Origin: Nostoc sp. S13 | GTDB lineage: Bacteria; Cyanobacteriota; Cyanobacteriia; Cyanobacteriales; Nostocaceae | DNA: 64,000 bases | Direction: 5' to 3' | Assembly: GCF_029379315.1 (NCBI RefSeq) | Contig: NZ_JAQYWQ010000017.1 | Span: forward strand, 1 to 64,000 | Part shown: one piece after another, positions 21,340 to 64,000 of the stretch | How positions within the stretch are numbered: the stretch's first letter is position 1 | How the letters are laid out: each line of letters begins with the position of its first letter | Made by a program: the position numbers and the translations under genes | Notes under the pieces: model-generated | What the model was told of the DNA's origin: nothing | What the model saw: only the letters and a program-made list of their open reading frames with translations | Databases searched by the model: none

Positions 21340-24300
21340 CTAATGGCTTTTTTCTTGATGTTTTTGTCGGAGTTGTCTTTGTTGTTTCTTTGATTCTCTA
21401 CGAGTATTAACTAAATCGTGACTTGGTTGTAAATCAGGTTTTTCTGCTAATTGTTGACTTAAATGTTTCGCCAATGCACTAATCGTTGGATATTGAAACA
21501 TTTCAACAATTGATATCTCTTTATTAAGAGTTTGATACAGTTTGCTGTGTACCTGAACCATCAGCAATGAATGACCGCCAAGATCGAAGAAATTGTGATC
21601 AATGCCTACTTTCTCGACGTGAAGTACTTCTTGCCAAATTATAGCAATAGTTTGCTCAAGTTCAGTCTCAGGAGCCACAAAGTTTTCTTCCAGATTCAGC
21701 TGGGGCTGATCGGGTAGTACTCGACGATCTACCTTGCCGTTGGGCAACAGTGGCATTTCCTTGAGCAGAACAAAAGCTGACGCTACCATATATTCAGGCA
21801 GATGATCCAACAAATAGCGACGAAGTTCATTAATGAGAGGAACTGGCTGCTGGTTAGCAACCAGATATGCCACGAGGCGTATATCCTGAAGTTCCTGCTT
21901 CTGGGCTATAACTACAGCCTCCCGCACCTGTGGATGTTGATCCAGTACCGCTTCAATCTCTCCCAGTTCTATACGATAACCCCGGATTTTAACCTGCTGG
22001 TCAAGCCTTCCCAGAAATTCAATGTTGCGATCGCTCAGATAACGGGCTAAATCTCCCGTTTTGTAAAGGCGCATTCCTGGGCGATCGCTAAATGGGTTAG
22101 GAATGAACTTTTCGCTAGTTAAGGCAGCTTGGTTGAGATAGCCTCTTGCTAAACCATCACCACTGATATAAACTTCGCCGATAACGCCAACAGGAACAGG
22201 TTGCAAATGAGAGTTAAGTAGATAAATCTGCGTATTAGCAATGGGTTGACCAATCGATACTTGCCCTTTGGTTTGTTGAGAGCCACAATGGTATACACTG
22301 CTCCAAACTGTGCCTTCTGTTGGCCCATACTCATTAAATAAAGATGGTTTTGATGGCAATTGGTGATGACGTTGTACTAACTCTGCTGGACAAGATTCAC
22401 CAGCAACAATGACGATACGGAGTGATGTTAATTGTTCGGGTTTGGCCTCCTCCAATAAAATAGTATACAAAGATGGAAGGCTTAATAAATGGGAAACATG
22501 ATTTTCAACGATTAACTCTAATAGTTTTGGAATGTCCAATTGCAACCCTTCTTGGGGAAGACAAAGAATCCCTCCAGAACAAAGAGTCCAAAAAATACCC
22601 GCCACAGAACTATCGAAAGCAAAGGAAGAAAGTAATAGGAAGCTGCTAACGGGTTCTTGATAGTAAGTAATCCGAGCAGTTGTAGAGTTTACTAAATGGC
22701 GATGTGCAATCTGCACTCCTTTAGGTTTGCCTGTAGAACCAGAGGTGTAAATGACATAAGCTAAGTTTTCACTATGGGTTTTGAGCGAGAGATTTTCTTG
22801 ACTCTCCTGAGCAATAATTTCCCAAGCTGTATCCAAGCAAATTGTTTGGGCGTTATGGGTTGGTAAACCCGAAAGCAGTCGTTGCTGAGTCAATAATACT
22901 GGTGTTTTGGTATCTTCTAATATGAAGGCTAAACGCTCTGACGGATAATTGGGGTCGAGTGGAATATAAGCTCCACCAGCTTTGAGAATACCTAAAATCC
23001 CAACAATCATTTCGAGGGATCGCTCGATACAAATTCCCACCATTACCTCTTTTCCAACTCCTAACCTTTGGAGGTAGTGAGCCATTTGATTGGCACGAGC
23101 GTTTAATTCACGATAGGTAAGTTTCTGGTCAGAAAATGTAACAGCAATATTGTTTGGTGTTCGCTCTGCTTGTTCTTCAAATAAGTGGTGAATACACTTA
23201 TCTTGAGGATAATCAGCCTGTGTTTGGTTGAACTCAATTAGAAGTTTATGTCGGGTGCGATCGCTTAAAATTTCTAATTCACTGATTACAGCTTCTGGAT
23301 TATTTACAGCACTTTCTACTAACTTGTGAAATTGCTCTGCTAATCTTTCAATATCGTTTGCACAAAATAGGTTAGAATCATAATGAAATTCTGTATTTAT
23401 TAAATCATCCCTTTGCTGACAATAGAGCTTTATTTTAAAACGTTCAATGCAGGTGTAACGCTGGGAAATTGTAAATATTATACTATCTGCAAAATACTTT
23501 CTATCTTCTGATTGAAAATCAAAGCCAAAAGGTAAAAAAGACAAGTTCTCTGATTTGGTATCGGATGATATTTGTTCCCAAGTAAAACCATCTTGCCATT
23601 TGTAGATAGATTCTACAGATTTATGAATCTCCTGTATAACTTGACTAAACTGGAAATTATCTTCTAGATCACAACGAACTGGTAAGTATTTAGCAAACAG
23701 CCCTAATGCGTTTTTTAGTTCATTATATTTCCTGCCATCAACAGCGTTGCTAACTATTATCTTGGATTGTCCAATAAGTCGCCAAAGCAGAATCAACCAG
23801 CAAGTTAAATAAAATATAGAAGCAGATGTATTATACTTCTGAGCTAAAACTTCAATTTTTACTATTAGTTCAGGTGCAATTATTGAACTTAATAATTTTG
23901 GTTCAAATTTCTGTTTTTCCGAAAGAGAGATTTCATCAGGAAGCTGTAAATATTCAATAGCAGAAAAGTCTTGCTTGCGCCAATAGTTTCTTCCTAGTGC
24001 TGTTTCCTCTGCTTCAAGGATTTGATTTTGCCATTCCGAAAAATCTGCGTATTGCAGTGGTTCTACAGATAGCTTATTTGGCGATTGATTGGAATATAAA
24101 ATGGCAATTTCTTCTACGAGATTTATCAGACTTGCATTATCTCCGCAAAGAGCAGGTAAACTGAGAAATAACAGATGTTTCTCTGGCGATAAAGTTATCA
24201 GGGATGTCTGTAAAATTGAACCTTGCTGATAGTCAAAAGGCAACTGGTTAAATTGCTGATATATTGCTTCAATCTTAGCTTCTTGTTGTTGAGGATTCAA

Positions 24301-24579
24301 ACTACTAAGATTGTGCTTTGTGTCTAATTTTAACTTGTGGTTTGTAATTACCTGCACTGGAAGAGTCATCCCAGGTAGACAAGGAAAATAGGTACGAAGT
24401 ATCTCATGGCGATCGACAATATCTTGCAATGCCAATTCTAGGTTATTTATATCGAGATTACCTTCAATTAAAATCGCGCAATTGCTACGATACGCTTCAC
24501 TTTTATCAATTTGTTCCAGCAACCATAGATGCTCTTGCTGAGGTGAAAGTTGAAACCCCTCCATACTTTCTGCTTGCAT
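21340..24579 (-). CDS. NRPS module: condensation-like interface domain - A (His-type) - PCP
   Basis: 1079 aa. The N-terminal ~430 residues have a condensation-type fold outline (SPQQEHLW..., RHEILRT), but LPALCGD stands at 141-147 where HHxxxDG belongs, so it cannot be a normal C domain. The A domain (~470-975) has YTSGSTGKPKG, YGPTE, YKTGD and NGK. Reading the ten pocket positions against PheA gives D-S-A-S-I-A-E-V-W-K, close to His codes as I remember them (DSALIAEVWK, and DSELTAEVCK of bacitracin). PCP Ser1004 (LGGHSLL). The preceding genes encode a free C domain and a TauD/SyrP oxygenase, suggesting beta-hydroxylation of PCP-bound His. The C-terminal tail is basic, probably for docking to the KS at 21330. 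The 20-bp spacing to the TauD gene implies tight coupling. Confidence 0.9.
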   Translation of the reverse strand: MQAESMEGFQLSPQQEHLWLLEQIDKSEAYRSNCAILIEGNLDINNLELALQDIVDRHEILRTYFPCLPGMTLPVQVITNHKLKLDTKHNLSSLNPQQQEAKIEAIYQQFNQLPFDYQQGSILQTSLITLSPEKHLLFLSLPALCGDNASLINLVEEIAILYSNQSPNKLSVEPLQYADFSEWQNQILEAEETALGRNYWRKQDFSAIEYLQLPDEISLSEKQKFEPKLLSSIIAPELIVKIEVLAQKYNTSASIFYLTCWLILLWRLIGQSKIIVSNAVDGRKYNELKNALGLFAKYLPVRCDLEDNFQFSQVIQEIHKSVESIYKWQDGFTWEQISSDTKSENLSFLPFGFDFQSEDRKYFADSIIFTISQRYTCIERFKIKLYCQQRDDLINTEFHYDSNLFCANDIERLAEQFHKLVESAVNNPEAVISELEILSDRTRHKLLIEFNQTQADYPQDKCIHHLFEEQAERTPNNIAVTFSDQKLTYRELNARANQMAHYLQRLGVGKEVMVGICIERSLEMIVGILGILKAGGAYIPLDPNYPSERLAFILEDTKTPVLLTQQRLLSGLPTHNAQTICLDTAWEIIAQESQENLSLKTHSENLAYVIYTSGSTGKPKGVQIAHRHLVNSTTARITYYQEPVSSFLLLSSFAFDSSVAGIFWTLCSGGILCLPQEGLQLDIPKLLELIVENHVSHLLSLPSLYTILLEEAKPEQLTSLRIVIVAGESCPAELVQRHHQLPSKPSLFNEYGPTEGTVWSSVYHCGSQQTKGQVSIGQPIANTQIYLLNSHLQPVPVGVIGEVYISGDGLARGYLNQAALTSEKFIPNPFSDRPGMRLYKTGDLARYLSDRNIEFLGRLDQQVKIRGYRIELGEIEAVLDQHPQVREAVVIAQKQELQDIRLVAYLVANQQPVPLINELRRYLLDHLPEYMVASAFVLLKEMPLLPNGKVDRRVLPDQPQLNLEENFVAPETELEQTIAIIWQEVLHVEKVGIDHNFFDLGGHSLLMVQVHSKLYQTLNKEISIVEMFQYPTISALAKHLSQQLAEKPDLQPSHDLVNTRRESKKQQRQLRQKHQEKSH

Positions 24580-24598
24580 ATTTATACCTCTATGTCAA

Positions 24599-25648
24599 TT
24601 AAACGCATTGGGGAGTATACGGTTCAGCCATTCCTACTAAAATTTTTCTGGGAGGGACAAATGGCTTGCGGGCATGTATTGATAACATATTGTCCAACAT
24701 CAATACATCTCCTTTTTGCCAGGAAAAGATGACCATTTCCTGTTGATAAGCTTCTCTCAGATGAGCTAACACTGATGGCTCTATTGGAGAACCATCTCCG
24801 TAATATGTGTTAGTCGGTAAGTCTTGTTCTTGTAAATTTGTCAACAATGAATCGCGGACTGTTGGTTCCAAAGTGGAAACGTGGAAAAAAGTCGCGTGGT
24901 TGAACCAGACCATTTCACCGGTCTGAGGATGTTTGATAATAGCGGGTCCAACTTGTCGAGTTCTTAAGCGATCGCCTGTTTTCCATTCAACCTCAATTCC
25001 ATGACTTTGGCAATACTCCTTTACCTTTATTTTGTCTGTTGTTTGAAATACAGTTTGCCAAGGAAGACCAAATCCATCGCCAAAGTTACGCATATACATC
25101 ACTTTCTTTTCAATAAAGCGATCGCGGATAGTTGGATTAATCCGCTCAAAAACTTTTCGACAACTACCAATTGGAGTTTCTCCTCCCTCCAGCGCTGGAC
25201 TCATACAAAAGAAGAATATTTTTAACGGAAAGGTCAGAGAATATGCGTGTTCATTGTGGGGAAAGATACTTTGTTCAGCAGGGTAGTCAGTTGAAGTATA
25301 AATTCTACCGCCTACTTGAGTTCGTGGAGATGCCCGATAACGATACTCCATTGCTTCTCCACAAATAGCTGCGATGATTTGCTCTAATTCCTCTACTGAT
25401 TTAACTTTGAAATCCCGAAAAAGGATAGCTCCATATTTTAATAATTCGGTGTTTACAAATTTACGATTGTTCTCAGCCCAGTTTTCCAGATTCACACCTT
25501 TTATGCTAGGTTTGATCACTAAAGGAAAGTTAGTGTCAGACTGAATAAACTCTGTTTTTATTAAGTTTTCTGGCGAGAGATTGACGCTCTTACGTCTTCC
25601 TGTTCCTAAATGATTGATATTATATCCTTGAGATTCAGTTTTTGTCAT
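24599..25648 (-). CDS. SyrP-like TauD oxygenase, predicted aminoacyl-PCP beta-hydroxylase (unit III)
   Basis: 349 aa. Iron ligands His131 and Glu133 (PHNEHAY) and distal His325 (SIHARKPF), with Arg about 11 residues later as the 2-oxoglutarate contact. GAILFRDF, PLKIFFFC, EGGETPI, FGLPWQTVFQT, RLRTRQ and WFNHA...FHVSTL are hallmarks of the SyrP branch, whose members beta-hydroxylate carrier-bound amino acids. It lies between a stand-alone C domain (25668-27218) and the interface-A(His-type)-PCP protein (21340-24579), with 19-20 bp gaps, so the predicted substrate is His on that PCP. It is much closer to the oxygenase at 60526-61560, which by position serves an Asp module, than to the fused one at 50478-53021. 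Confidence 0.88.
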   Translation of the reverse strand: MTKTESQGYNINHLGTGRRKSVNLSPENLIKTEFIQSDTNFPLVIKPSIKGVNLENWAENNRKFVNTELLKYGAILFRDFKVKSVEELEQIIAAICGEAMEYRYRASPRTQVGGRIYTSTDYPAEQSIFPHNEHAYSLTFPLKIFFFCMSPALEGGETPIGSCRKVFERINPTIRDRFIEKKVMYMRNFGDGFGLPWQTVFQTTDKIKVKEYCQSHGIEVEWKTGDRLRTRQVGPAIIKHPQTGEMVWFNHATFFHVSTLEPTVRDSLLTNLQEQDLPTNTYYGDGSPIEPSVLAHLREAYQQEMVIFSWQKGDVLMLDNMLSIHARKPFVPPRKILVGMAEPYTPQCV

Positions 25649-25667
25649 AAATTGTATTTCCTTAAGC

Positions 25668-27218
25668 TTATAATCTGCTAGTAGTTCTGCGTTTAACGTT
25701 CATTAATTTTTGTTTAATTGTGTTTTGATAAACTTGTTCTTGGGCGAGATTATGCTGCTTGTCTGCTTCAGAAAGAATTGTTTTTAGCTCATTCAATTTA
25801 GCTTCTGGATGTGTCGAAATCTTGCCTAAAAGCATTTCAAAATTTCTCGACATCTGGGCAATACTGGCAGTGTCAAATAGGTCTGTATTATATTCCCATA
25901 CACCAAATAGTCCTTTCTCTGTCTCATTTAGCTCTAGGAGTAAGTCAAACTGCACTGTTTTATTTTCGACCTTTAAGGAGCTTATAGTCAGATTTGAAAG
26001 TTCTAAAGACGGGGTTTGGGTATTTTCCAAAACTAGCTTTACCTGAAACAATGGTGAGCGATTCAACTCCCGTTTCGGATTCAGAGCATCTACCAGTTTG
26101 TCAAAGGGCAGATCCTGGTAAGCATAGGCTTCCAGGGTCATTTCGCGAACTCGTTCTAATAACTCTAGAAAGGTAGGATTTCCTGATAAATCGGTACGCA
26201 ATACCAGTTGGTTGGCAAAGAACCCAATCAATCTCTTGGTCTCGGCTTGGTTGCGGTTGGCGATATCAGTACCCACGACGATATCTTCTTGCCCTGTGTA
26301 CCAGGAAAGCAAAGTCCCAAACGCTGCAAGTAGTATCATAAATAGCGTAACACCTTGCCGTTGATTCAGAGCTTTAAGCTTCTCGGATAAGGTTTTGGGT
26401 AACATTAGAGCTTCCCTTGCTCCAGAGAAAGTCTGAATTCTTGGTCGGGGACGGTCAGTGGGTAGTTCGAGTGTAGGTAGGCGATCACCCAACTGCTGCT
26501 TCCAGTAAGCAACTTGAGTTTCTAGTTGCTCTCCTTGTAACCATTGTCGTTGCCAAACGGCAAAATCTGCATACTGGATAGATAGTTGAGGAAGCGGTGA
26601 GGGTTTTCCCAGACAAAAGGCTTCGTAAAGGGCTGCGATTTCACAAATAAGCACGCCTATTGACCAACCATCAGAGATGATGTGATGCATGGTCAACAAT
26701 AGGACATGATCTGTCTCGCTTTGCCGCAGTAGAGTAACTCGGAGTAAGGGGACTTTGGCTAAGTTGAAGGAGTATTGAGCTTCTTCATAAGCTAGTCGCA
26801 GAACCTCAACTTCCCTCTTGTCTATGGCAACTTGTTGCAAATTTACCAATAATAGTCTGAAAGTAGGGGTTGGAGCAATAACTTGTATTGATTGACCATC
26901 CACTGTAGTGAATGTGGTTCTTAAAACTTCGTGACGCTTCACCACTTCTTGAAAGCTTTGCTCTAACACCCCCACATTTAGCGATCCTACCAGACGCATG
27001 GACTGGAAGATGTTATAGGCACTATGACCAGGCTGCAACTGGTCGAGAAACCACAGGCGCTGCTGGGCAAAGGATAGGGGAAAGGAGTTGGACTCTCGAC
27101 TTTGAGGGACTATTTGCGATCGTAAGAAGATGTCTCCTTTTTTCTGGTTAAGCCGTTTTGCAAGAAGCTTAAGTTTCTCTGGGGAAAGAGCAGCAATTTT
27201 TTGGGAAAGGTCACTCAT
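25668..27218 (-). CDS. Stand-alone NRPS condensation domain (unit III)
   Basis: 516 aa. The N-terminal helix (~1-25, LSQKIAALSPEKLKLLAKRL) resembles an NRPS docking region, followed by one C domain: SFAQQRLWFLDQLQPG (~50), RHEVLRT, and an intact active site HHIISDG at 178-184; later YADFAVWQRQWL and IGFFANQLVLR. There is no A or PCP; the protein ends about 30 residues past the C domain. It should supply the peptide-bond step for the downstream interface-A-PCP protein, whose own first domain lacks the catalytic motif. The upstream donor is the ACP of the C-methylating synthase (28427-34255). The oxygenase gene follows after 19 bp. Confidence 0.9.
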   Translation of the reverse strand: MSDLSQKIAALSPEKLKLLAKRLNQKKGDIFLRSQIVPQSRESNSFPLSFAQQRLWFLDQLQPGHSAYNIFQSMRLVGSLNVGVLEQSFQEVVKRHEVLRTTFTTVDGQSIQVIAPTPTFRLLLVNLQQVAIDKREVEVLRLAYEEAQYSFNLAKVPLLRVTLLRQSETDHVLLLTMHHIISDGWSIGVLICEIAALYEAFCLGKPSPLPQLSIQYADFAVWQRQWLQGEQLETQVAYWKQQLGDRLPTLELPTDRPRPRIQTFSGAREALMLPKTLSEKLKALNQRQGVTLFMILLAAFGTLLSWYTGQEDIVVGTDIANRNQAETKRLIGFFANQLVLRTDLSGNPTFLELLERVREMTLEAYAYQDLPFDKLVDALNPKRELNRSPLFQVKLVLENTQTPSLELSNLTISSLKVENKTVQFDLLLELNETEKGLFGVWEYNTDLFDTASIAQMSRNFEMLLGKISTHPEAKLNELKTILSEADKQHNLAQEQVYQNTIKQKLMNVKRRTTSRL

Positions 27219-27279
27219 TTATAGAAACCAATATCAAATAATAAATGTAAAAACGCTAATTGTTTGAGAAGTATTGGGT

Positions 27280-28242: not shown

Positions 28243-28262
28243 ATCAGGTCTGGTCGATTACT

Positions 28263-28415
28263 TTATTTGAAATTCTTTAATAATTTTTTTAAGTACTGTG
28301 AATCTTGTGTTATTTTAAGCAAATATATAACTAAGGGTGTAACAACAATCAGCCCAATTGTCAAAAAACTCAACCCAATAACTTCAGATAAAGAAAGAGG
28401 TAATTCCATAGTCAT
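28263..28415 (-). CDS. 50-aa membrane mini-protein resembling the JmjC anchor (remnant or real small protein)
   Basis: Found by reading the gap by hand: ATG at 28415 (a second ATG at 28409), TAA at 28263-28265. The peptide starts MTMELPLSLSEVIGLSFLTI and continues as one transmembrane helix ending IYLLKITQD. It matches the first ~35 residues of the JmjC oxygenases at 7728-8708 (MTIQSPLFFSNIIELSFLTI) and 27280-28242, and the DNA match extends upstream of the start (ATAGTCATATCAA on the plus strand). After the helix it diverges and stops where the catalytic domain would begin. The ATG is 11 bp past the stop codon of the synthase gene, so it could be translated by coupling. It is either the stub of a lost fourth paralogue or a free membrane peptide. 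Confidence 0.55.
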   Translation of the reverse strand: MTMELPLSLSEVIGLSFLTIGLIVVTPLVIYLLKITQDSQYLKKLLKNFK

Positions 28416-28426
28416 ATCAAACTCAG

Positions 28427-50481: not shown

Positions 50482-53021
50482 TTACCTCCTCCTTGCCTGC
50501 TATGAAGTGTAATGTTTTGGCTTTGAATCATTTCTCCCATTGCTACCACAATTTTGCGTTCCCCCTCATAGGGGTAACGTCCGTGTGCAACAAGCATATT
50601 ATCTAGCATCAAAATGTCTCCTTTATGCCAAGGAAAACTTGTCTTCGACTGCTGATAAACTTGATTAATTTCTGCAATTACTTCGTCTTCTATGGGAGTA
50701 GCATCCCCATAATAAACATTACGTGGTAGCTTTTGATCTCCAAACAATGACAACAGAGATTCTCGGAGTTCTGCATCTAAATATGCTATATGGTGTAACT
50801 GTATTTGATTGAAAAATACCTGATCACCAGTTTTAGGATGTACTGCTATTACTGGACGAACTTGACGAGTCATTAGACTATTATTATCATACCATTCAAA
50901 ATCGATTTTAGCCTGAATACAGTAATTTTCTACTAAAGATTTGTCATTGGTACGAAAGAAATCTTGCCAGCTTACATCTAAACCATTCGTATAATTACGA
51001 ACGTACATGAATTGTTTTTCAGCTAATACTTCTCGTAGTTTGGGATTGAGGAGTTTATAAGCTTTTCGACAGTCTACAATCGGCGTTTGTCCACCTTGTT
51101 TAGCAGGTTGTACGCAGAAAAACCAAATTTTTAAAGGAAACTGATGTAAGTGAGAGCTTTCATTGTGGAAAAGAATAGCTGTATCGGGTGGGTAAGGAGT
51201 AGAACCATAAACTTTACCGCTTTCTCCAGCACGAGGTAAGTCGCCATACTCACCGAATAAATCTGGACAAATTGCCTGGGCAACACTTTCAAATTCTGAG
51301 AGAGAATCTACATTGAAATCTCGAAATAGAATCGCTCCATGTTTCAACAATTCTGTTTCTAGAAATTTTTGGTTAGTTTTAGCCCAAGCCACAAAATCAA
51401 TCTCGTCAGCATCTGGCTGAATTACAAGAGGAAATGTTTGCCCTGGTTGGAGATAAATAGTCTTGATTAATCTTTCTTGTGATAAACTTAACGCTTTGGG
51501 CGCAAGGCTAATAAACTTTTCTCGCTTGAACGCTTTGCGCTCCATTTTTTGCGTGGTTTGTTGTTTTATTTCGGCATCAGTCAGCATTTCTAAATTGCCG
51601 ATTCGTGCATCAGGTTGGGACACAATGCTGTTGAGTAGCGTCTGGAAGTTGTTTGTCATGCGAGTGATGGTGCTGACATCAAAAAGATCAGAGTTGTACT
51701 GCCACTTGCCCAAGATGCCTTGCTCTGTTTCGGTGATAAATAGTGCTAAATCAAACCTTGCTATTTTGTTTTCAACTTCTAACAGGCTTAAGGTCAGTCC
51801 TGGCAATTCCAAAGGTGACGTGGGAGTATTCTGGAGGACAAACAACACCTGAAATAATGGCGGCGTGTTGCTCACATTACGCTCTGGTTGCAAAGCTTTG
51901 ACTAATTGATCAAACGGCAAATCTTGATGAGCATAAGCTCCTAATGTTACAGAGCGTACTCGTTTAAGCAATTCCTCAAAGGTGGGGTTTCCGCTCAACT
52001 CGGTACGTAAGACAAGCAGATTGACAAAAAAGCCAATTAATAATTCAATTTCTGCTTGATTACGATTAGCGACATCAGTGCCAACAACGATGTCATTTTG
52101 ACTAGTGTAGCGTTGTAGTAGTATCTGAAAACCTGCCAGCAAGGTCATGAATAAGGTGACACCTTGTTGACGCGACAGTGCTTGCAGTTCTTGAGATATG
52201 TTAGAGGGAATGAGGAAAGATTGAGTAGCGCCCTTATTGGTTTTAACTTCTGTTCGCGGACGAGTTGTCGGTAATTGCAGTATAGGGAGGTTGCTTCCTA
52301 ATTGTTTCTTCCAGTAAGCAAGTTGAGCTTCAAGTACCTCTCCTTGTAACTGCTGTCGTTGCCATACAGCAAAGTCTGCATACTGAATTGGCAGTTCGGG
52401 AAGTGGTGAGGGTTGCCCACTACAGAAGGCTTGATAAAGTGCTGTCACCTCACGCACTAACACACCAATTGACCAGCCGTCAGAGGTAATGTGGTGCATC
52501 GTCAGTAGTACTATATGCTCTTGTTCCTCAAGGCGCAGTAGTTTCACCCGCAACAGAAGGTCGCTGTTGAGGTCAAACGATTGTCGTGCTAAGTCTGCCA
52601 GTTGTGTGACTTCGGCTTGTTGTTGATTTAAAGGTAACTCACTGATATCGAGTACGGGCAACAGTAGTGGTGTCGCTTTGGAGATAACTGCCACGGGTTG
52701 CCCTTCTACTGTCTGGAAATTCGTTCGCAACGTTTCGTGGCGGCGTAAAATTTCGTTGAAACTTTGTTTTAGTGCCTCTTGGTTCAATTGTCCCTGTAGA
52801 CGAACAGCAGCAAAAATGTTGTAAAAAGGGCTGTCTGGCTCCAACTGAGCCAGGAACCATAGTCGCTGCTGGGCAAATGAGAGTTTGCACGAACCAGTTT
52901 CTGTTCTACGAGAAATTATCTGTGTTCCTGGACTGTTTATCCCCTTCTTCTTGAGTAGTTGTTTAAAAAGCTCTTGTTTTTCTGAGGAAAAATCACCTAT
53001 ATGCGTGGATGAATAACTCAT
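50478..53021 (-). CDS. Condensation domain fused to a TauD/SyrP beta-hydroxylase (unit II)
   Basis: 847 aa. The C domain (~45-480) has SFAQQRLWFLAQLEP and HHITSDG at 176-182. A linker (~480-530) leads into a complete TauD oxygenase (~530-840) with His619 and Glu621 (FHNESS), distal His813 (VAHGRYPY) and Arg soon after (GERKIVV). Hydroxylase domains fused to the C-terminus of an NRPS and paired with an interface domain are known for siderophore Asp beta-hydroxylases. Here the fusion joins exactly the two functions that are separate genes at 25668-27218/24599-25648 and 62639-64000/60526-61560. The oxygenase is distinct from the two free ones: it has GLDVSWQDFF and FNQIQLHHI where they have GFGLPWQTVF and FNHA-FFH-S. 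No A or PCP. Confidence 0.9.
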   Translation of the reverse strand: MSYSSTHIGDFSSEKQELFKQLLKKKGINSPGTQIISRRTETGSCKLSFAQQRLWFLAQLEPDSPFYNIFAAVRLQGQLNQEALKQSFNEILRRHETLRTNFQTVEGQPVAVISKATPLLLPVLDISELPLNQQQAEVTQLADLARQSFDLNSDLLLRVKLLRLEEQEHIVLLTMHHITSDGWSIGVLVREVTALYQAFCSGQPSPLPELPIQYADFAVWQRQQLQGEVLEAQLAYWKKQLGSNLPILQLPTTRPRTEVKTNKGATQSFLIPSNISQELQALSRQQGVTLFMTLLAGFQILLQRYTSQNDIVVGTDVANRNQAEIELLIGFFVNLLVLRTELSGNPTFEELLKRVRSVTLGAYAHQDLPFDQLVKALQPERNVSNTPPLFQVLFVLQNTPTSPLELPGLTLSLLEVENKIARFDLALFITETEQGILGKWQYNSDLFDVSTITRMTNNFQTLLNSIVSQPDARIGNLEMLTDAEIKQQTTQKMERKAFKREKFISLAPKALSLSQERLIKTIYLQPGQTFPLVIQPDADEIDFVAWAKTNQKFLETELLKHGAILFRDFNVDSLSEFESVAQAICPDLFGEYGDLPRAGESGKVYGSTPYPPDTAILFHNESSHLHQFPLKIWFFCVQPAKQGGQTPIVDCRKAYKLLNPKLREVLAEKQFMYVRNYTNGLDVSWQDFFRTNDKSLVENYCIQAKIDFEWYDNNSLMTRQVRPVIAVHPKTGDQVFFNQIQLHHIAYLDAELRESLLSLFGDQKLPRNVYYGDATPIEDEVIAEINQVYQQSKTSFPWHKGDILMLDNMLVAHGRYPYEGERKIVVAMGEMIQSQNITLHSRQGGGK

Positions 53022-53045
53022 TTATCTTATTTCCTTTTATCGCTG

Positions 53046-53888: not shown

Positions 53889-54018
53889 AATAAATTTTTT
53901 GTGAAGTTAGTAAGTAAATTTTAATGTTAACAAAGGGTCAGTCAAAAATGATTTTAAAACAAAGTACTTGTTTTCCTTGAAAGTTGCTGAAAACTCTTGT
54001 TGATTTTGAGTCATTTTC

Positions 54019-57000: not shown

Positions 57001-60000
57001 CAGAACCTCAACTTCTTGTTCTTCTTCTAATAATTCACCCAAATTTATAATTGGCAGCGTTATATTCAGCGCCGAAGCAATTTTCTGGACGGGATGCCCA
57101 TCTACATCTGTAAAACTTGTACGCAAGACTTCATGACGTCGCACAATTTCATTGAAGCTTTGCTCCAGTGCTGCCACGTTCAGCGAACCTTTTAGTCGCA
57201 CAGATCGAGAAATATTGTAGAAAGGATTACCTGGTTCCAGTTGGTCGAGGAACCACAACCGTTGCTGGGCAAAAGACAAAGGTAACTCTCTGTCCCGCGA
57301 AACACCCTCAATTGGTGGAAGTTGCAGTTTCTGCCCAGCGCTGATTGTGGTTTCAATGAGTTTAGCTAATCCCCCTACTGTCGGTGTTTCAAATAAACTA
57401 CGCAGTCGCAACTCTACTTGAAAGGCCTCGCGCACTTGCGAAACAACTTGCGTGGCTAGCAACGAGTGCCCTCCCAAGTCAAAAAAGTTATCGTCGATAC
57501 CTACGTACTCAGTACCAAGAACTCTAGCCCAAATTCCAGCAAGTACCTCCTCAACTGGTGTGCGGGGAGTTGAAAAGCTTTTTTCTAACTCAGGACGTAC
57601 TGAGTTGGGTTCTGGCAGTGCCTGACGGTCTACTTTGCCGTTGGGAGTAAGCGGTAGCACCTTGAGCATGACAAAGCTTGAAGGCACCATATATTCAGGC
57701 AACCTCGCCTGCATATAATCACGCAGTTCATTATTAATGATGGGCGATTCTTGAGAGAGTACAACGTAGGCTACCAGATACTTCTGACTAGACTCTGAAT
57801 CTCTTGCTAAGACGACAACTTCCCGCACATTTGGGTGGAGACTGAGTATTGCCTCAATTTCTCCTAGTTCTATACGGAAGCCACGAATTTTAACTTGGTG
57901 GTCGGTACGACCTAAAAACTCAATCGTACCGTCTGGTAAATAGCGTGCCCGATCGCCGGTTTTGTAAAGCCGCGCTCCTTCTTCCTGACTGAATGGATTG
58001 GGAATAAATTTAACAGCCGTCTGTTCGGGCTGATTCACATAGCATCTAGCTAGAGTTGTCCCACCAATGTATATTTCCCCATTTAGTCCTATGGGAGCAG
58101 GCTGCAAGTTCTCTTCCAGAACATATACCTGCGTGTTAGGAATTGAGCGACCCAGGGGAACTGTTTGGGATTTTGGATAACAGCAAAGGTCGTGATTAAG
58201 TTCTACTAGATAAGTAAGTACACCGACAGTGCCTTCTGTCGGACCGTAGTGATTGAAGATCAGGCAATCTTGTGCATACTTTTGAATCTGCTCAATCAGT
58301 TCCCAACTAGTAGCCTCACCACCTAGTATAAGTCGTTCTCTAGGCAGGATAGACCTTGGTGAAGAAGATGTTAACAGAGAAGCAAGGTGAGAGGGAACAA
58401 TCTTGAGACAGTCAATAGGATGTCTATGGCAATATTCTGCCAAAGCTGCTGGGTCAGTAGCACGCTCGTAGGAGATTACATGCAGACACCCTCCCGTACA
58501 CAGACAAGGAAAGATAGCTGTGTTGCCTAAGTCTGCGGCGAATGTAGAAACCAGTGCAAAATTAGCACCTGCTGGCAGGTTTAACTGCTCGACGATCGCA
58601 TATAAATAATTGAGCAATTGTCGGTGTTCAATTGCAACCCCTTTAGCTGTGCCTGTAGAACCAGAGGTAAACAGTACATATACTAGATTTTCATTTGTTA
58701 CCTTGCTATTGGGATTAAGATCATTTTCCTGAGTAATAGTTTCCCAGTCGCTATCCAGGTAGATTACTGTTGTTTGCTCTTTGTTATTCGTCATTGGTTC
58801 AAAGTTATTTACCAATGATGAATGACTAATGATTAATGACACCTGGGCATCCTGCAATCGTAATGCCAAACCTTCTTTCGGCAATGCAGGATCTAATGGC
58901 ACATATGCCCCACCAGCTTTCAGGATGGCTAAAAGTCCAACTATCATGTCAAGCGATCGCTCTACACACAGCCCCACTAAAACCTCTGGTGCAACCCCCT
59001 GCTTTTGCAGGTAGTGAGCTATTTTGTTAGCCCGTTGATTAAGTTCCTGGTAAGTCAGTTGTTGGTCTTCAAAGATAACAGCAACTTTATTCGGGGTTTT
59101 TCCTACCTGTTGCTCAAACAGTTGGTGAATGCACTTGTTGTGAGGATAATCGCGCTTCGTGTTTACCTGGTCAAGCAGTTGTTGTCTCTCGATTTGACTG
59201 AGAATATCTAACTGACTAATTGCTGTGTCTGGATGAGCGATCGCACTCGCTAACAATGTCTGAAATTGCCCGACTAAGCGTTTGATATCTTCTAAATGAA
59301 ATAAGTTGGAGTCATAGTGAAATGCTACATTTAGCGTATTATTCTGACGAATGCAAGAAAGCTTGATTTTGAATCTTTCAATGCAAGTATATAGTTGGTT
59401 AATCGAAAAAGATACGTTAGCAGCTACATAATTTACTGGCAGTTCTTCAAACTCAAAAGAAACTGGGAAAAAACGTAAATTTGGATACAATTCTGCTATT
59501 AGTTCCCAATTAAAGTAATCCTGTAGCTGATAAATATTCTCTGCACATTCATTATTTTGATGGAAAACATCAATAAAATTGGATTCTAGTTCTATATTGG
59601 AAATTAACGGTAAGTATTTAGTAAATAATCCTATACTCTTCTCTAATTCGTGATACTTGCGTCCCTGATAAGCCACACCGATACTCAAATTTTGCTGTTT
59701 AGTAAGACGCCCAAGTAAAATCTGCCAGGAAGCTAAGAAAAACTCAGCAACTGAAATATTATACTGCTGAGTCAGGATGTAAATTTGTTCTAACAAAGCA
59801 GGGGCAATTGTGAAACTTTGGGTTCGAGGCTGAAATTCTAGTTGCTCTGTAGACTGTTTTTCAAAAGGCAGCTTTAATTTTGTCAGCGCTGAAAAATCCT
59901 GTTTTCGCCAATAGTCTCTGCCTGCTTCTGTATCTGCCCCTTCTAACAATTCGTTTTGCCATTCAGCCAAATCTGCGTATTGTAGTGGTTCATCGTCTAG

Positions 60001-60504
60001 TTCTTTACCTTGCAAGCAAGCTGCATAAGACTGGCTGATTTCTTGCACTAAAATTTTTAGTGTTGCTGCGTCTGCACAAAGTGCAGGTAAGCTAATGAGC
60101 AAAGCATACTTAAATAACGACAGAGTTACTAAAGATAGGTGTAATGGGGAACCTTCTACTAAATCAAACGACTGTTTGTTTACTTGATCAAATAAGGCTG
60201 ATAAAAATTCTTCTTGTTCTTGACGTGTGCAATCTCTCAAGTTGTGGTTTTCGTCCCAAGCAATACCGTTGTTTCTAATGACTTGCAAAGGTATAGTCAT
60301 CCCAGGCAAGCAATGAAAATTAGTACGGAGAATTTCATGCCGACTGACAACTAGTTCTAAAGCTACTCTCAAGGTGTCGATATCAAGATTCCCTTCTATC
60401 AAAACAGCACACTGTGAAGAATAAGGAAAGTTGTCACTTTCCTGTAAATGCCAGAGATGTTTTTGTTGGGGTGAGAGTCGAAAACCCTGCATTTCGTCTA
60501 TCAT
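54019..60504 (-). CDS. Two-module NRPS: interface-like - A(Asp) - PCP - C - A(Pro-clade) - PCP
   Basis: 2161 aa. Domain 1 (~1-430) is condensation-like with LPALCAD at 139-145 instead of HHxxxDG. A1 (~455-960) has the Asp code D-L-T-K-I-G-H-V-G-K. PCP1 Ser1014. The C domain (~1065-1500) is canonical, with HHIVADG near 1205. A2 (~1520-2030) belongs by sequence to the GrsB-Pro-like clade (HNHYGPSETHVV, TTGEQLQ), but its pocket reads D-A-H-I-T-T-H-V-V-K against the usual D-V-Q-(L/F)-I-A-H-V-V-K, so the substrate may not be proline. PCP2 Ser2084, followed by a helical acidic tail. The TauD gene upstream (21-bp gap) and the C domain at 62639-64000 complete unit I. GGAG precedes the ATG. No epimerisation domain. 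Confidence 0.92.
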   Translation of the reverse strand: MIDEMQGFRLSPQQKHLWHLQESDNFPYSSQCAVLIEGNLDIDTLRVALELVVSRHEILRTNFHCLPGMTIPLQVIRNNGIAWDENHNLRDCTRQEQEEFLSALFDQVNKQSFDLVEGSPLHLSLVTLSLFKYALLISLPALCADAATLKILVQEISQSYAACLQGKELDDEPLQYADLAEWQNELLEGADTEAGRDYWRKQDFSALTKLKLPFEKQSTEQLEFQPRTQSFTIAPALLEQIYILTQQYNISVAEFFLASWQILLGRLTKQQNLSIGVAYQGRKYHELEKSIGLFTKYLPLISNIELESNFIDVFHQNNECAENIYQLQDYFNWELIAELYPNLRFFPVSFEFEELPVNYVAANVSFSINQLYTCIERFKIKLSCIRQNNTLNVAFHYDSNLFHLEDIKRLVGQFQTLLASAIAHPDTAISQLDILSQIERQQLLDQVNTKRDYPHNKCIHQLFEQQVGKTPNKVAVIFEDQQLTYQELNQRANKIAHYLQKQGVAPEVLVGLCVERSLDMIVGLLAILKAGGAYVPLDPALPKEGLALRLQDAQVSLIISHSSLVNNFEPMTNNKEQTTVIYLDSDWETITQENDLNPNSKVTNENLVYVLFTSGSTGTAKGVAIEHRQLLNYLYAIVEQLNLPAGANFALVSTFAADLGNTAIFPCLCTGGCLHVISYERATDPAALAEYCHRHPIDCLKIVPSHLASLLTSSSPRSILPRERLILGGEATSWELIEQIQKYAQDCLIFNHYGPTEGTVGVLTYLVELNHDLCCYPKSQTVPLGRSIPNTQVYVLEENLQPAPIGLNGEIYIGGTTLARCYVNQPEQTAVKFIPNPFSQEEGARLYKTGDRARYLPDGTIEFLGRTDHQVKIRGFRIELGEIEAILSLHPNVREVVVLARDSESSQKYLVAYVVLSQESPIINNELRDYMQARLPEYMVPSSFVMLKVLPLTPNGKVDRQALPEPNSVRPELEKSFSTPRTPVEEVLAGIWARVLGTEYVGIDDNFFDLGGHSLLATQVVSQVREAFQVELRLRSLFETPTVGGLAKLIETTISAGQKLQLPPIEGVSRDRELPLSFAQQRLWFLDQLEPGNPFYNISRSVRLKGSLNVAALEQSFNEIVRRHEVLRTSFTDVDGHPVQKIASALNITLPIINLGELLEEEQEVEVLRLASLQARQSFDLTQDALLRTTLLRLKEEEHVLVFTIHHIVADGWSTGVIIHEITALYKSFHSGKPSSLPELPVQYADFAIWQRQWLQTVQSSQMAYWKQQLGGNLPVLQLPTDRPRPAIQAFRGRKQPWQISKTLTEALKSLSQKKAVTLFMTLLAAFKTLLYRYTNQADILIGSPIANRNRKEIEGIIGFFVNTLVLRTDLSGNPSFKELLRRIREVTLDAYAHQDLPFEQLVEELQLERNLSYTPLFQVMFVLHNVPVEVLKLPNLSLSPMEIEPETSLFDLTMYLTETEQGMMGYFEYNSDLFDTATIKRMQGHFQTLLEGIVANPDQHLSDLPILTATEQQQLLVNWNQTSADYPSSCIHQLFEAQVEQTPNSIAVVFENQQLTYQELNVRANQLAHYLQTLGVRPEVLVGICVERSLEMMVGLLGIFKAGGAYVPLDPAYPQERLAFMLEDTQVTVLLTQQKLVEQLPEHKVRVVCLDKDWENITYASDENPVSSVTVDNLAYVIYTSGSTGKPKGIALAQRPLINLLEWHFSSLYRGARTLQFASLSFDASFHEIFATWGTGGTLFILSENLRMDAVGLGRFLADQAIEKVILPVVVLQQLAESVGEQGIAPLHSGFFSSLQEVTTTGEQLQITQPIIKLFKSLEHCCLHNHYGPSETHVVTALSLKKNFEEWSFYPPIGRPIANTQIHIVDQQFNPVPVGVIGELYIGGISLARGYLNRPDLTAEKFIPDPFSDKSSTRLYKTGDLARYMPNGNIEYLGRIDHQVKIRGFRIELGEIEAVLSQHPSVLEVVVLCHKDEAGNNKLIAYVVSDQESTPTTTELRRFLHERLPNYMMPSVFVFLEELSLTPNGKVDRQALPAPDQLRSELEKIFVAPRTMAEEIVAGIWKQVLCIEQVGVYDNFFELGGHSLMTTQVISRLRQAFLVELPIRSLFESPTVEGLVNAIAQIWGSCEVVEEIAQTWKELEQISVDQAKTMLSRSKIEIEG

Positions 60505-60525
60505 TCTAATTCTCCGTACTTGGCA

Positions 60526-61560
60526 CTAAATATCTTTACTACTGAATTGTTTTGCCATTCCTACTACGACCTTTCGCTCTCCGACAAATGGCATCCGTCC
60601 GTGTGCTGCTAGCATATTATCGAGCATTAAAATATCTCCAGCTTGCCAAGGGAAAATTATAGTTTCTTGTTGGTATACAGCACGAATTTCATCTAACACG
60701 GTTTTTTCAATTGGCGACCCATCACCATAATAAGTATTGTGTGGCAAGTCTTCTTCTCGGAACTCAGCTAACAATGACTTGCGGATATTTTGTTCCAAAG
60801 TTGATATATGAAAAAATACAGCGTGATTGAACCAAACTTGTTCACCTGTTTGGGGATGGGTGGCAACAGCCTGTCTAATTTGGCGGGTTCTTAAGCGATT
60901 GCCCTCTTTCCACTCGAATTCTATGTCATTGTGACGGCAGAAGGTTTCTACTTCGGCTGGATTAGTTGTTTGAAACACTGTTTGCCAAGGTAAGCCAAAG
61001 CCATCGCCAAAGTTGCGGACATACATCACTCCTTTTTCGATGAAGCGATCGCGAATCTTAGAATCAATCCCTTGATATAATTTCCGAGTGTCAGCAATCG
61101 GGGTTTCTCCTCCCTGCTGTGCTGGTGTCACACAGTAAAAGAAGATTTTTAGAGGCCATGTGGCAGCATAGGAATTCTCGCTGTGAAGAAAGATAGTTTG
61201 GTTGGCAGGATAGTCGGTTGAAGTATAAATATTACCTTGAATTAGACTGCGGGGTGAAGAGCGATCGCGATATTCCAGCAAATCTCCAGAAACTGTCTGG
61301 ATAAATTTTTCAAACTCTGCCACATCTCTAACTTGGAAGTTACGAAACAGGATACCACCATGTTTGAGTAAATTTGTTGCAATTAACTCCTGATTACTTG
61401 CTACCCAAGTTACTAAATTAATCCCTTCTACAATAGGTTGTAACAGCAAAGGTAAAGAATTATCAAGCAATAGAGGTGTTACCTTTATCAAGTTTGTGTA
61501 CGATATATTAACACCTTGTCGTCTTTTAGACTTGATTTGTAGAGACTCTGGAGTTGTCAT
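60526..61560 (-). CDS. SyrP-like TauD oxygenase, predicted Asp-PCP beta-hydroxylase (unit I)
   Basis: 344 aa. Iron ligands His126 and Glu128 (LHSENSY), distal His320 (AAHGRMPF), Arg in GERKVVVGM. It shares with 24599-25648 the blocks FGDGFGLPWQTVFQTT, RLRTRQ, HPQTGE-VWFNHA and YYGDGSPIE; the N-terminus (~1-40) is less conserved. It stands 21 bp before the gene for the interface-A(Asp)-PCP protein, so beta-hydroxylation of PCP-bound Asp is predicted. Its closer likeness to the unit III enzyme (His-type module) than to the fused unit II enzyme (Asp module) means either that the two hydroxy-Asp residues have different stereochemistry or that selectivity is set by the NRPS rather than the oxygenase. 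Confidence 0.88.
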   Translation of the reverse strand: MTTPESLQIKSKRRQGVNISYTNLIKVTPLLLDNSLPLLLQPIVEGINLVTWVASNQELIATNLLKHGGILFRNFQVRDVAEFEKFIQTVSGDLLEYRDRSSPRSLIQGNIYTSTDYPANQTIFLHSENSYAATWPLKIFFYCVTPAQQGGETPIADTRKLYQGIDSKIRDRFIEKGVMYVRNFGDGFGLPWQTVFQTTNPAEVETFCRHNDIEFEWKEGNRLRTRQIRQAVATHPQTGEQVWFNHAVFFHISTLEQNIRKSLLAEFREEDLPHNTYYGDGSPIEKTVLDEIRAVYQQETIIFPWQAGDILMLDNMLAAHGRMPFVGERKVVVGMAKQFSSKDI

Positions 61561-61688
61561 TATTTATCTCTGGCAAGTTTGATACTGACAAAATAACATT
61601 TGGCTTTTTCTGTCTATAAATAGAACTCCTTCTGTCAGGTATACTTTGTAATCTTTTCGCTAATATCCGTGATATTTTATGAGACTTT

Positions 61689-62573
61689 TTACTTTTCTAG
61701 TGACTGCATACTTGGAAACTTTAAACCCAAATCTTCCAGATATTTGACACCCAAAGCTTTCAGAAACTCTGGTTTAAGTGTGTTGTTTTCTATGATATTA
61801 CTACCTTCATTATTATTTCCTTTATATACAATTACTTGGTTATGATAAAAGTGTACGGAGACAATATTTTTATCAAGATAAGACGGACAATAACCAGGGT
61901 TTAAAAATTCTTCATAATTTAAACCATCTGCTAGTCTTTTGTACATAGCCATTATAGTGTCAGAAGCGTTTAAGTCCACATTACCACCAACGCTGACACA
62001 ATTTGCTAAAAAAACACTATTTTCTGCCAATTTCGACCATTGACTTCCCAAACTAGGCCAATAAGAAATGTGAGTATTTTCTTCTGCATAAATACCACCT
62101 TCCTTTAAAGCCGGGAAAAGAGTATTGAATGTTTTTATCCGAAGCTCATTAACCGAGCAACCATCTTCTATTATGATATCAAGTTCACCCGTTTCATCAA
62201 TCACTTTTTTCAAAAAATTTTCATCACTTTGGTCCCCTTGAAAAATTTTGATTCGTTCTTCTTCCAAACCTTTTTTGTCTACAACATCAATACCATAAAT
62301 TATACTGTTTGGAAAATATTGTTTCCACATCCTTAAAGACTCTCCTCCTACATTTGGATTGTCATAACCTCCTACACCTATCTCAAGGAGCTTTATTTTT
62401 TTAAGTCTGAATGGAGCAAAATGCTTTTGGTAATGTTGACCAAATCGATGAGTTTCACCCCACTTAGCATTGTCATAAAGACTAGATAACTTTATTAAAT
62501 CTTTCCTATAAATATATTTTTTGACAAAATGTGAAATTCCTTTCGTCTTTTTAGATGGCTGTGTTTGATTCAT
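61689..62573 (-). CDS. SAM methyltransferase of the MycE/TylE sugar-O-methyltransferase type, altered active site
   Basis: 294 aa. Motif I is LLEIGVGGYDNPNVGGESLRMW (split: LLEIGVGG near residue 82, then GGESLRMW), followed by YGIDVVDK, FQGDQSD and YAEENTHISYWP. These are features of metal-dependent O-methyltransferases such as MycE and its relatives. In those enzymes, as I recall, a DDGSH block supplies a metal ligand and the catalytic His; here it reads EDGCSVNE, so the His is missing. It may have changed substrate or be inactive. A strong Shine-Dalgarno sequence (AGGAGG, 62581-62586 on the plus strand as CCTCCT) precedes the ATG. It sits between the C domain and the oxygenase of unit I, where units II and III have nothing. 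Confidence 0.75.
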   Translation of the reverse strand: MNQTQPSKKTKGISHFVKKYIYRKDLIKLSSLYDNAKWGETHRFGQHYQKHFAPFRLKKIKLLEIGVGGYDNPNVGGESLRMWKQYFPNSIIYGIDVVDKKGLEEERIKIFQGDQSDENFLKKVIDETGELDIIIEDGCSVNELRIKTFNTLFPALKEGGIYAEENTHISYWPSLGSQWSKLAENSVFLANCVSVGGNVDLNASDTIMAMYKRLADGLNYEEFLNPGYCPSYLDKNIVSVHFYHNQVIVYKGNNNEGSNIIENNTLKPEFLKALGVKYLEDLGLKFPSMQSLEK

Positions 62574-62638
62574 TTATAGTCCTCCTATGTCAAAGTAAAA
62601 GTAACAACGAAGTTTAAAAAGGGAGAATCTGTTATAAT

Positions 62639-64000
62639 TTAAGTTTTTTCTGATCCGTGAATTGCTTTACGCTTTGTCAGCTTGAGTTTTTGTACAGAAG
62701 TGCGTTCTAGTTCTTGTTCTTTTATTAGTTGTTTTTTTCTGTCAGCTTTAGCGAGCACTTTAGCTAACTCGTTAATTCTAATATCAGGCTGTTTAACAAT
62801 ATAGCATAGAAGGATTTCAAAATGACTTATCATTCGAGCAATAGTAGTGGTATCAAACAAGTCTGTTTTATACTCCAATGAGCCATTAAAACCTTCTGAA
62901 CTTTCCCAAATACTTAACTTCAAATCAAACTTTGAAGTACCGCTATCGGCTTCCAACGGTCGCAGAGTCAGCCGTGGAAGTTCTATAGTTGATATCGGGG
63001 TATTTTGGAGGATAAACATTACCTGAAACAGTGGATTATGGCTTAAATTCCGTTCTGGCTGCAATTCCTCCACTAACTTTTCAAAGGGTAAGTCTTGATG
63101 AGCATAGGCTCTTAAAGCTACTTCGCGCACCCTGCCTAATAATTCGCGGAAAGTCAGTTCGCCTGATAAGTTAGTACGCAAGACCAATGTGTTGAGAAAA
63201 AAGCCAATGAGTTTTTCTGTTTCTCTTCTGGTGCGACCCACAACAGGCGAACCTACTATTATCTCCTCTTGATTTGAATAGCAGTATAACAAAGTCTTGA
63301 ACACTGCCAGAAGTGTCATAAACTGAGTGACACCTTCTTGTCGATTCAAGTTATTAACTGCCTCCCTTAGAGCCTTAGGAAACGTAAAAAATTGCTTTTT
63401 GCCAGTGTAGGTTTGTATAGCTGGTCGTGGTCGATCGGTAGGAAGTTGCAGTACAGCTAAATTGCCACTCAATTGCTGCTTCCAGTAATTCACCTGACTT
63501 TCAAGTATTTCTTTTTGCAACCATTGTTTCTGCCAATAAGCAAAATCTGCATATTGAATTGGAAGTTTAGAAAGTGATGAGGGTAAGCCATCAGAGAAAG
63601 CTTCGTAAATCTCTGCCAGTTCTCGGATTAGAATGCCAATAGACCAACCATCCGAAATAATGTGGTGCATGACTAACAAGAGCATATGCTCCTGTTGTGT
63701 CAAACGTAGGAGTTTAGCTCGCAGCAGTGGTGCCTGAGACAAGTCGAAAGGCTGTTGGGCCAACTCAGTAGTAATGCCTAAAGCTGACTCTATATTTACT
63801 CCCGGTAAATCTACAACTGGCAAGGTTATTTTTAAGGTTGGAGCGATCGCTTGGATTGGTCGTCCTTCTACTGCCGAAAAGCTTGTTCGCAATGGTTCAT
63901 GACGTCCCACAACTTCGTTAAGACTTTGTTCTAAGATCGCTGTGTTTAGCTCCCCAGTTAAATGCACAGCGATCGGAACATTGTAAAAGGGGTTTCCAGG
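62639..64000 (-). CDS. NRPS condensation domain, 5' end outside the window (unit I)
   Basis: The frame is open from the stop at 62639 to the window edge (454 codons), and the residues before the first possible start (PGNPFYNVPIAV at the edge) are typical C-domain sequence, so the gene continues beyond 64000. The apparent start at 63967 is an internal GTG. Visible: RHEPLRT, HHIISDG, YADFAYWQKQWL, IGFFLNTLVLR and a short basic tail (KLKLTKRKAIHG). By comparison with 25668-27218 about 60 more N-terminal residues would complete a stand-alone C domain, but a larger NRPS ending in this domain is also possible. The methyltransferase gene follows after 65 bp. Confidence 0.88.
   Translation of the reverse strand, partial: PGNPFYNVPIAVHLTGELNTAILEQSLNEVVGRHEPLRTSFSAVEGRPIQAIAPTLKITLPVVDLPGVNIESALGITTELAQQPFDLSQAPLLRAKLLRLTQQEHMLLLVMHHIISDGWSIGILIRELAEIYEAFSDGLPSSLSKLPIQYADFAYWQKQWLQKEILESQVNYWKQQLSGNLAVLQLPTDRPRPAIQTYTGKKQFFTFPKALREAVNNLNRQEGVTQFMTLLAVFKTLLYCYSNQEEIIVGSPVVGRTRRETEKLIGFFLNTLVLRTNLSGELTFRELLGRVREVALRAYAHQDLPFEKLVEELQPERNLSHNPLFQVMFILQNTPISTIELPRLTLRPLEADSGTSKFDLKLSIWESSEGFNGSLEYKTDLFDTTTIARMISHFEILLCYIVKQPDIRINELAKVLAKADRKKQLIKEQELERTSVQKLKLTKRKAIHGSEKT

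Follow-up and report, generated by a model that had tools for sequence, protein, structure and literature searches.

What does an oxygenase do between an intact condensation domain and one that has lost its catalytic motif, and why should this arrangement occur three times in one gene cluster? The question is raised by a stretch of 64,000 nucleotides from Nostoc sp. S13 (assembly GCF_029379315.1, contig NZ_JAQYWQ010000017.1, positions 1 to 64,000; hereafter the window), which holds the minus-strand core of a hybrid nonribosomal peptide synthetase/polyketide synthase (NRPS/PKS) cluster. A sequence-only reading of the window had recognized three units, each with a condensation (C) domain, a TauD oxygenase, and a protein composed of a C-like domain, an adenylation (A) domain, and a peptidyl carrier protein (PCP). 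It likened them to siderophore synthetases, in which a noncatalytic interface domain is proposed to present the PCP-bound residue to a beta-hydroxylase. Our analyses indicate that the locus is probably a siderophore cluster, initiated by a fatty acyl-AMP ligase (FAAL) and equipped with three on-line beta-hydroxylation stations at which the oxygenases would dock via interface domains.

Three units with a noncatalytic condensation-family domain

The open reading frames, coordinates, minus-strand orientation, and Pfam domains of all three units were confirmed (Table 1). Each unit contains an intact C domain, a TauD, and a protein that opens with a PF00668 domain lacking HHxxxDG and continues with A and PCP. 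In unit II, the C domain and TauD are fused in one protein (50478-53021), and in units I and III, TauD is stand-alone. The C domain of unit I forms the C-terminal end of a FAAL-acyl carrier protein (ACP)-C protein that extends past the end of the window, as far as contig position 66154; its scores against FAAL families are strong, yet under the NCBIfam cut-offs. The unit I protein at 54019-60504 also holds a second, ordinary C-A-PCP module. As the sequence-only reading had stated, the oxygenase lies directly between the intact C domain and the C-like protein in units II and III, but in unit I a 294-aa gene, for which there is no Pfam or NCBIfam match, intervenes.

The loss of the condensation motif is equally clear: SLPALC(A/G)D replaces HHxxxDG in the three C-like domains, which PF00668 still matches (213 bits in unit III and 223 bits in unit II). 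The upstream C domains are intact at this motif, and the H-x-E...H iron site is retained in all three unit TauDs.

Table 1. Positions of the unit domains and of other features in the window
Feature	Position	Strand	Remark
Penicillin-amidase-family acylase	79..2196	-	Possible removal of a fatty acyl group
Fourth TauD, outside any interface unit	9819-10691		
Unit III A domain + PCP	21460..23214	-	Code DSALIAEVWK, His
Unit III interface-like domain, protein 21340-24579	23215..24579	-	SLPALCGDNAS
Unit III stand-alone TauD, predicted His beta-hydroxylase	24599..25648	-	
Unit III stand-alone C domain	25668..27218	-	HHIISDG
Unit II A domain + PCP	47341..49116	-	Code DLTKIGHVGK, Asp
Unit II interface-like domain, protein 47245-50481	49117..50481	-	SLPALCADVQT
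Unit II TauD domain, C-terminal to C in fusion	50541..51413	-	64% identical to cyanochelin B fused TauD
Unit II C domain, fused to TauD	51561..52889	-	HHITSDG
Unit I A domain + PCP	57325..59139	-	Code DLTKIGHVGK, Asp
Unit I interface-like domain (noncatalytic C-family)	59140..60504	-	SLPALCADAAT
Unit I stand-alone TauD, predicted Asp beta-hydroxylase	60526..61560	-	55% to cyanochelin B stand-alone TauD
294-aa gene between unit I C gene and TauD	61689..62573	-	Conserved, 61-73% identical in four orthologous clusters
Unit I C domain (end of FAAL-ACP-C starter protein)	62639..64000	-	HHIISDG

The same anatomy recurs outside the window. The loci considered were the best 80 of 585 confirmed TauD places in genomes, plus those on plasmids, and from each the region from TauD to the next A domain was extracted. 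Gene neighbourhoods were fetched for 55 of 56 genome stretches (G027:C1162 was left out). An A domain follows 900 to 1,700 bases downstream in 112 of 146 TauD matches. Among the 117 cases with a gap of 1,100 to 2,500 bases, the intervening domain carries HHxxxD in one (L072 of Vibrio harveyi, where an ordinary C domain with HHIAGD stands behind TauD), is unaligned in one (L139), and lacks the motif in the rest. With L072 and three candidates shorter than 400 aa left out, the counted set comprises 148 interface domains, 81 cyanobacterial (assigned by profile score) and 67 proteobacterial (assigned by position). The second, catalytic His is missing and the motif Asp is kept in every one of the 148, with the first His kept in 8. 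The nearest C-family domain upstream of TauD, taken with no motif filter, has HH...D in 101 of 103 cases, the other two being unaligned over the motif.

That the three odd domains of the window are interface-like is well supported by their anatomy and kinship. Each is flanked by a TauD hydroxylase on one side and an A domain on the other, and in a condensation-superfamily tree of the kind suggested by the sequence-only reading, all three group with the interface-like domains, apart from catalytic C and epimerization (E) domains. In this tree of 107 rows, 59 interface-like domains (27 cyanobacterial and 32 proteobacterial) split from 48 catalytic C/E domains (selected for their HH motif) with a support of 97, and the three labels need two changes, the minimum. 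The 107 rows are what remains of a 157-row tree after removal of seven mis-sorted rows (a loose HH pattern had placed six interface domains among the C domains, and the L072 C domain had been counted as an interface domain), one very long row, and 42 rows thinned at random; the two trees agree once the mis-sorted rows are read correctly. Reference domains were defined by position between TauD and A and came from the cyanochelin B cluster (L041 and L042), Cupriavidus basilensis (L096), and Variovorax (L079) in both trees, and from Pseudoalteromonas luteoviolacea (L119) in the 157-row tree only. A profile made from a subset of the cyanobacterial domains separates them sharply: the 81 domains score 411 to 707, and all other matches score 305 or less.

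Predicted ligands and comparison with known clusters

The A-domain codes of units I and II (DLTKIGHVGK) read as Asp, and that of unit III (DSALIAEVWK, the fourth letter being S in one other alignment) reads as His. We take DLTKIGHVGK to be two conservative changes away from the Asp code. Exactly three interface units occur in 6 of the 50 contigs or records tallied, and all 6 read as one fused Asp unit, one separate Asp unit, and one separate His unit. Five of these contigs form one orthologous group; the sixth (G045) comes from a different family, with its His TauD in another clade of the tree. From the codes Asp, Asp, and His, three bidentate ligands are predicted, two beta-hydroxyaspartates (beta-OH-Asp) and one beta-hydroxyhistidine (beta-OH-His), which would make a full set for the six sites of Fe(III). 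If this ligand set recurs, a complete chelator could be predicted from sequence.

In the mechanism that we propose, the A domain would load Asp (units I and II) or His (unit III) onto its own PCP, and the interface domain, with a condensation fold but without the catalytic His, would dock the aminoacyl-PCP and recruit the cognate Fe(II)/2-oxoglutarate-dependent TauD. The oxygenase would then hydroxylate the beta carbon of the PCP-bound residue before the upstream intact C domain forms the peptide bond. We infer the docking, the timing of hydroxylation ahead of condensation, the hydroxylation of His, and the hexadentate product from sequence.

The oxygenases of the three units differ in class. 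In the TauD tree, only that of unit II joins the proteobacterial C-fused Asp hydroxylases (support, 99), consistent with the IBH_Asp class; 9 of the 10 proteobacterial reference Asp hydroxylases are in one reading frame with C, and L117 is not. The TauDs of units I and III do not cluster with these enzymes, and both fall in the other half of the tree (support, 99). There, the unit III TauD groups with one from Methylocystis (L064; support, 99), a long branch that is assigned to His by code only. The partner A domain of unit III is predicted to activate His, the mark of the IBH_His class, again by code only. TBH_Asp hydroxylases are stand-alone and work without an interface domain; the stand-alone enzymes of units I and III depart from that class in that the target module of each has one. 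The two His groups, of 6 and 3 units, have in common two TauD positions and one interface position that are rare or absent in 39 Asp units. TauD shares an open reading frame with the upstream C domain in 79 of the 103 cases with C within 1.5 kb, but in 0 of 117 with the A domain that follows the interface domain. The 16 two-unit contigs or records combine one C-fused and one stand-alone TauD unit in 12 cases, two stand-alone units in one, and include one unit without TauD in three. Two-unit clusters are exemplified by L066, L067, L076, G008, G048, G054, and G055.

The closest known counterpart is the cyanochelin B cluster of Leptolyngbya sp. NIES-3755, on plasmid AP017310.1. Its product is reported to contain beta-OH-Asp, the two residues being assigned to the module after an NRPS-fused hydroxylase and the module after a stand-alone hydroxylase (PMC12628792). 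With I denoting the interface domain and slashes separating proteins, the layout on AP017310 is C / TauD / I-A-PCP-E and C-TauD / I-A-PCP. Both modules open with the same kind of motif (TLPALCAD and NLPSLCAD), and the word "interface" has no occurrence in the main text of the paper (PMC12628792). The window cluster resembles this NRPS/PKS hybrid, for which a FAAL is given in a figure legend (PMC12628792), in having one C-TauD fusion with I-A(Asp)-PCP (unit II) and one stand-alone TauD with I-A(Asp)-PCP (unit I). It differs in its PKS and tailoring genes and in having three units, whereas cyanochelin B has two, both Asp coded, and no His-coded interface unit. With its FAAL start, fused and stand-alone Asp units, and a TonB receptor nearby, the window cluster fits the cyanochelin type. 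The FAAL start and the C-TauD-C-A(Asp)-PCP layout are shared also with potashchelin of Halomonas, which begins FAAL-ACP-C-TauD-C-A(Asp)-PCP; there, the other hydroxylase is stand-alone and the module string given is NRPS only (PMC7100376). Because cyanochelin B and potashchelin carry the same layout, a single unit is, on this comparison, already a known kind.

Reitz et al. 2019 reportedly described the interface domain and the IBH hydroxylases as a noncatalytic C-family domain beside a TauD beta-hydroxylase for Asp or His. The window, too, has a noncatalytic C-family domain beside TauD, the difference being that cyanobacterial stand-alone TauDs also precede an interface domain and do so in the tree half of the proteobacterial stand-alone enzymes. 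The same interface domain and IBH hydroxylases are cited in PMC12971057 and PMC12230676, and the cyanobacterial hydroxylase classes named, CyanoBH_Asp1 and 2, are for Asp (PMC12971057). A cyanobacterial beta-OH-His station is a new part of our reading, as a prediction; if true, a cyanobacterial His hydroxylase with an interface domain would extend metallophore detection, in which the cyanobacterial classes named are those for Asp (PMC12971057).

Past the FAAL gene, and divergent from it, lie genes for a TonB-dependent receptor with an AMIN domain, a PepSY_TM protein, and a major facilitator superfamily (MFS) transporter. Because the cluster starts with FAAL-ACP-C and adjoins these three genes, a siderophore role and a lipopeptide product are likely. 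A TonB receptor and PepSY_TM also adjoin the orthologous cluster of G006, and TonB receptors are annotated alongside related clusters with two units in Leptolyngbya boryana and Gloeothece. The logic of siderophore interface domains, as drawn by the sequence-only reading, is supported by the grouping of the three domains, by a layout that matches both cyanochelin B units and the potashchelin module, and by the uptake genes. The three units are retained in the same order in four genomes of the same genus (G003, G005, G006, and G026), so chance can be excluded as the source of the arrangement. Among plasmid matches to the window's interface and TauD domains, the top ones are cyanobacterial, with Nostoc sp. 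UHCC 0926 first.

Co-inheritance of oxygenase and interface domain, and competing explanations

Trees of the C, TauD, interface, and A domains were compared for 67 cyanobacterial units and for a dereplicated set of 42 units under 80% TauD identity. At a Shimodaira-Hasegawa-like approximate likelihood ratio test (SH-aLRT) threshold of 90, the 67-unit trees of TauD and interface have 34 of 64 splits in common and one strongly supported conflict, compared to 13 to 20 shared splits and 14 to 26 conflicts for the other pairs. At SH-aLRT 95 (fast trees; removal counts are greedy and stop at 14 units left), conflict between TauD and interface is cleared by removing 1 of 67 units, as opposed to 21 to 53 for the other pairs. 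With 42 units at this threshold, the removals needed are 3 versus 6 to 28, and conflicting splits number 3 and 2 versus 6 to 13. The contrast is less clear for 42 units at SH-aLRT 90 on another alignment (8 and 7 conflicts versus 10 to 19), and the congruence result depends on such settings. Distance correlations run in the same direction, at 0.67 for TauD-interface and 0.23 to 0.53 for the other pairs. In the 67 units, the interface domain follows the TauD tree better than it follows the A domain to which it is fused, and within the A domain, the core around the substrate pocket follows the interface domain least. By approximately unbiased (AU) tests, no two of the trees are interchangeable; even for TauD and interface, identity is rejected, though with the smallest likelihood differences of any pair.

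This privilege of the TauD-interface pair is absent from 22 fused-only units and from 41 proteobacterial units. Movement of the whole C-TauD-I-A cassette is rejected for cyanobacteria overall, where the C-A conflict is highest, but does fit the fused-only and proteobacterial subsets. Of the earlier suggestion that a hydroxylation cassette moves as a unit, what stands is the co-inheritance of TauD and interface across cyanobacteria; C and A are exchanged. For cyanobacteria, and chiefly for their stand-alone units, the term cassette would fit the TauD-interface pair best, C and A being swapped around it. If the pair is a heritable module, it would mark places where engineered assembly lines could naturally be cut to introduce beta-hydroxylation.

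Decay of C domains left over after a C duplication, with TauD acting on the PCP without their help, is an improbable origin of the HHxxxDG-less domains. Consistent with decay, the stand-alone TauD of Vibrio L072, from the tree half of units I and III, precedes a C domain of the ordinary kind, and there are interface domains that have been kept where TauD is missing. However, the invariant Asp and conservation of the domain as a family, the gap in profile scores, and the tracking of TauD in preference to the fused A domain form a pattern that decay is not expected to give. A doubtful but more credible alternative is that the interface domain acts as a gate, holding back the upstream C domain until the residue has been hydroxylated, and not as the docking site of the oxygenase. 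A gate would suit its position between C/TauD and A-PCP, the complete lack of TauD in one reading frame with the A domain behind it, and its retention without TauD in modules with codes that we take to mean Ser or Thr. The co-inheritance of TauD and interface in cyanobacteria nevertheless indicates direct contact between the two.

Nor does the product seem likely to be a bioactive lipopeptide other than a siderophore, in which the hydroxylated residues would be structural. Lipopeptides with beta-OH-Asp that are not metallophores exist, such as turnercyclamycin (PMC12971057), and the PKS, aminotransferase (AMT), several further oxygenases, and acylase of the cluster would agree with such a product. 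The divergent uptake genes that directly adjoin the cluster, the TonB receptor and PepSY_TM beside it in G006, and the annotated TonB receptors of the Leptolyngbya boryana and Gloeothece clusters argue instead for a siderophore.

Several results count against a siderophore line with docked oxygenases. No convincing Fur box lies beside the FAAL and TonB genes in the 12.9-kb stretch searched. (Five 3-mismatch matches were found versus 1.27 expected, with 4 of 200 shuffles reaching five; only two lie between the FAAL and TonB genes, and none was used as evidence.) The AMT and PKS modules, three cupin_8 proteins, PhyH, and fourth TauD are not accounted for by a simple chelator. One contig (G002:C3) has four interface domains, three of them within ~35 kb, where the codes are Asp, His, and one that cannot be read; two Asp and one His is therefore not the rule for every three-unit group. 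In hhalign comparisons, the cyanobacterial interface domains score 434 against proteobacterial interface domains and 577 against ordinary C domains and are thus not nearer to the former, and the unrooted tree gives a single origin only if the root lies inside the C side. Since the profile-profile scores do not favor closeness among interface domains, a single origin rests on the tree together with a root among the catalytic domains. The sequence-only reading had counted C-like domains kept without TauD as evidence against itself, and these do occur in places. TauD lies upstream of 70 of the 81 cyanobacterial interface domains and is absent within 4.6 kb upstream of the other 11, one of which (L187) lies at the edge of its contig; in G025, a genome with a listed completeness of 100%, there is no TauD genome-wide at E<=1e-40 to the unit I TauD.

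Other enzymes at the interface domain, and remaining genes of the cluster

The position before the interface domain is not reserved for TauD. A WelO5-type 2-oxoglutarate protein directly precedes an interface-A(Asp) protein in G002 (L168) and G033 (L172), and a PF05118 Asp/Asn beta-hydroxylase does so in G007 (L206) and likewise in G402. Enzymes also occur stacked, as WelO5-WelO5-TauD before the interface domain in G379 and as TauD-WelO5 in G365, and G037 has two WelO5 genes further upstream. WelO5-type enzymes, often in tandem, stand ahead of interface-A proteins in several cyanobacterial families (L168, L172, L202/L232, L228, and L230); relatives at E<=1e-30 occur in 6 of 388 genomes sampled from the order. 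TauD and the interface domain are separated by a methyltransferase-like gene in the unit II orthologs of G003, G005, G006, and G026 (Pfam was run on the G006 copy only), and in Gloeothece too.

In L203 and L204, the interface domain is preceded by a methyltransferase and an Asn-synthetase-like gene. These two loci and L164 (G025) keep the interface domain without TauD, and the A code behind it is presumably Ser in L203 and L204 and Thr in L164. As Ser and Thr already bear a beta-hydroxyl, a hydroxylase would be unnecessary there. No modifying enzyme was seen beside the interface domains of L157, L161, and L191. In L157 and L161, no oxygenase intervenes between a C domain and the separate interface-A protein (DLTKIGEVGK) that directly follows it, and another TauD unit occurs on the same contig.

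The TauD-less cases and those with other enzymes break a strict TauD-interface rule, and this gene order suggests a wider docking role. Tentatively, rather than a TauD-specific adaptor, the interface domain may be a docking slot of general use, in trans, for enzymes that modify the carrier-bound amino acid. The place before it would be taken by TauD, WelO5-type, PF05118, methyltransferase, or Asn-synthetase-like proteins, alone or several in a row, and the A-domain core that follows it would be swapped (Asp, Asn, His, Ser, and Thr codes) with the slot unchanged. If other oxygenase families do use the slot, the interface domain would be a general recruiting platform. This slot and the beta-OH-His station are, as predictions, what is new here: neither is described in the title or start of the abstract among the matches listed, in a search outside which most subscription journals lie.

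The cluster has five extra oxygenase genes, none of them in an interface unit: the fourth TauD and four others (7728-8708, 8807-9736, 27280-28242, and 53046-53888), of which three are cupin_8/JmjC-like and one is PhyH. The NCBIfam model nearest to the PhyH gene is ectoine hydroxylase, below its cut-off. The penicillin-amidase-family acylase is present also in G003, G006, and G026, and the two-unit cluster of Leptolyngbya boryana has a gene annotated as an acylase too. In the window, a class-III AMT domain lies within a PKS module (16399-21330). In the orthologous clusters of G003, G005, and G026, an AMT domain stands ahead of a C-A-PCP module, and G026 has a second one in the last PKS protein; because its placement differs among these clusters, this part of the line appears to have been rearranged while the three units stayed.

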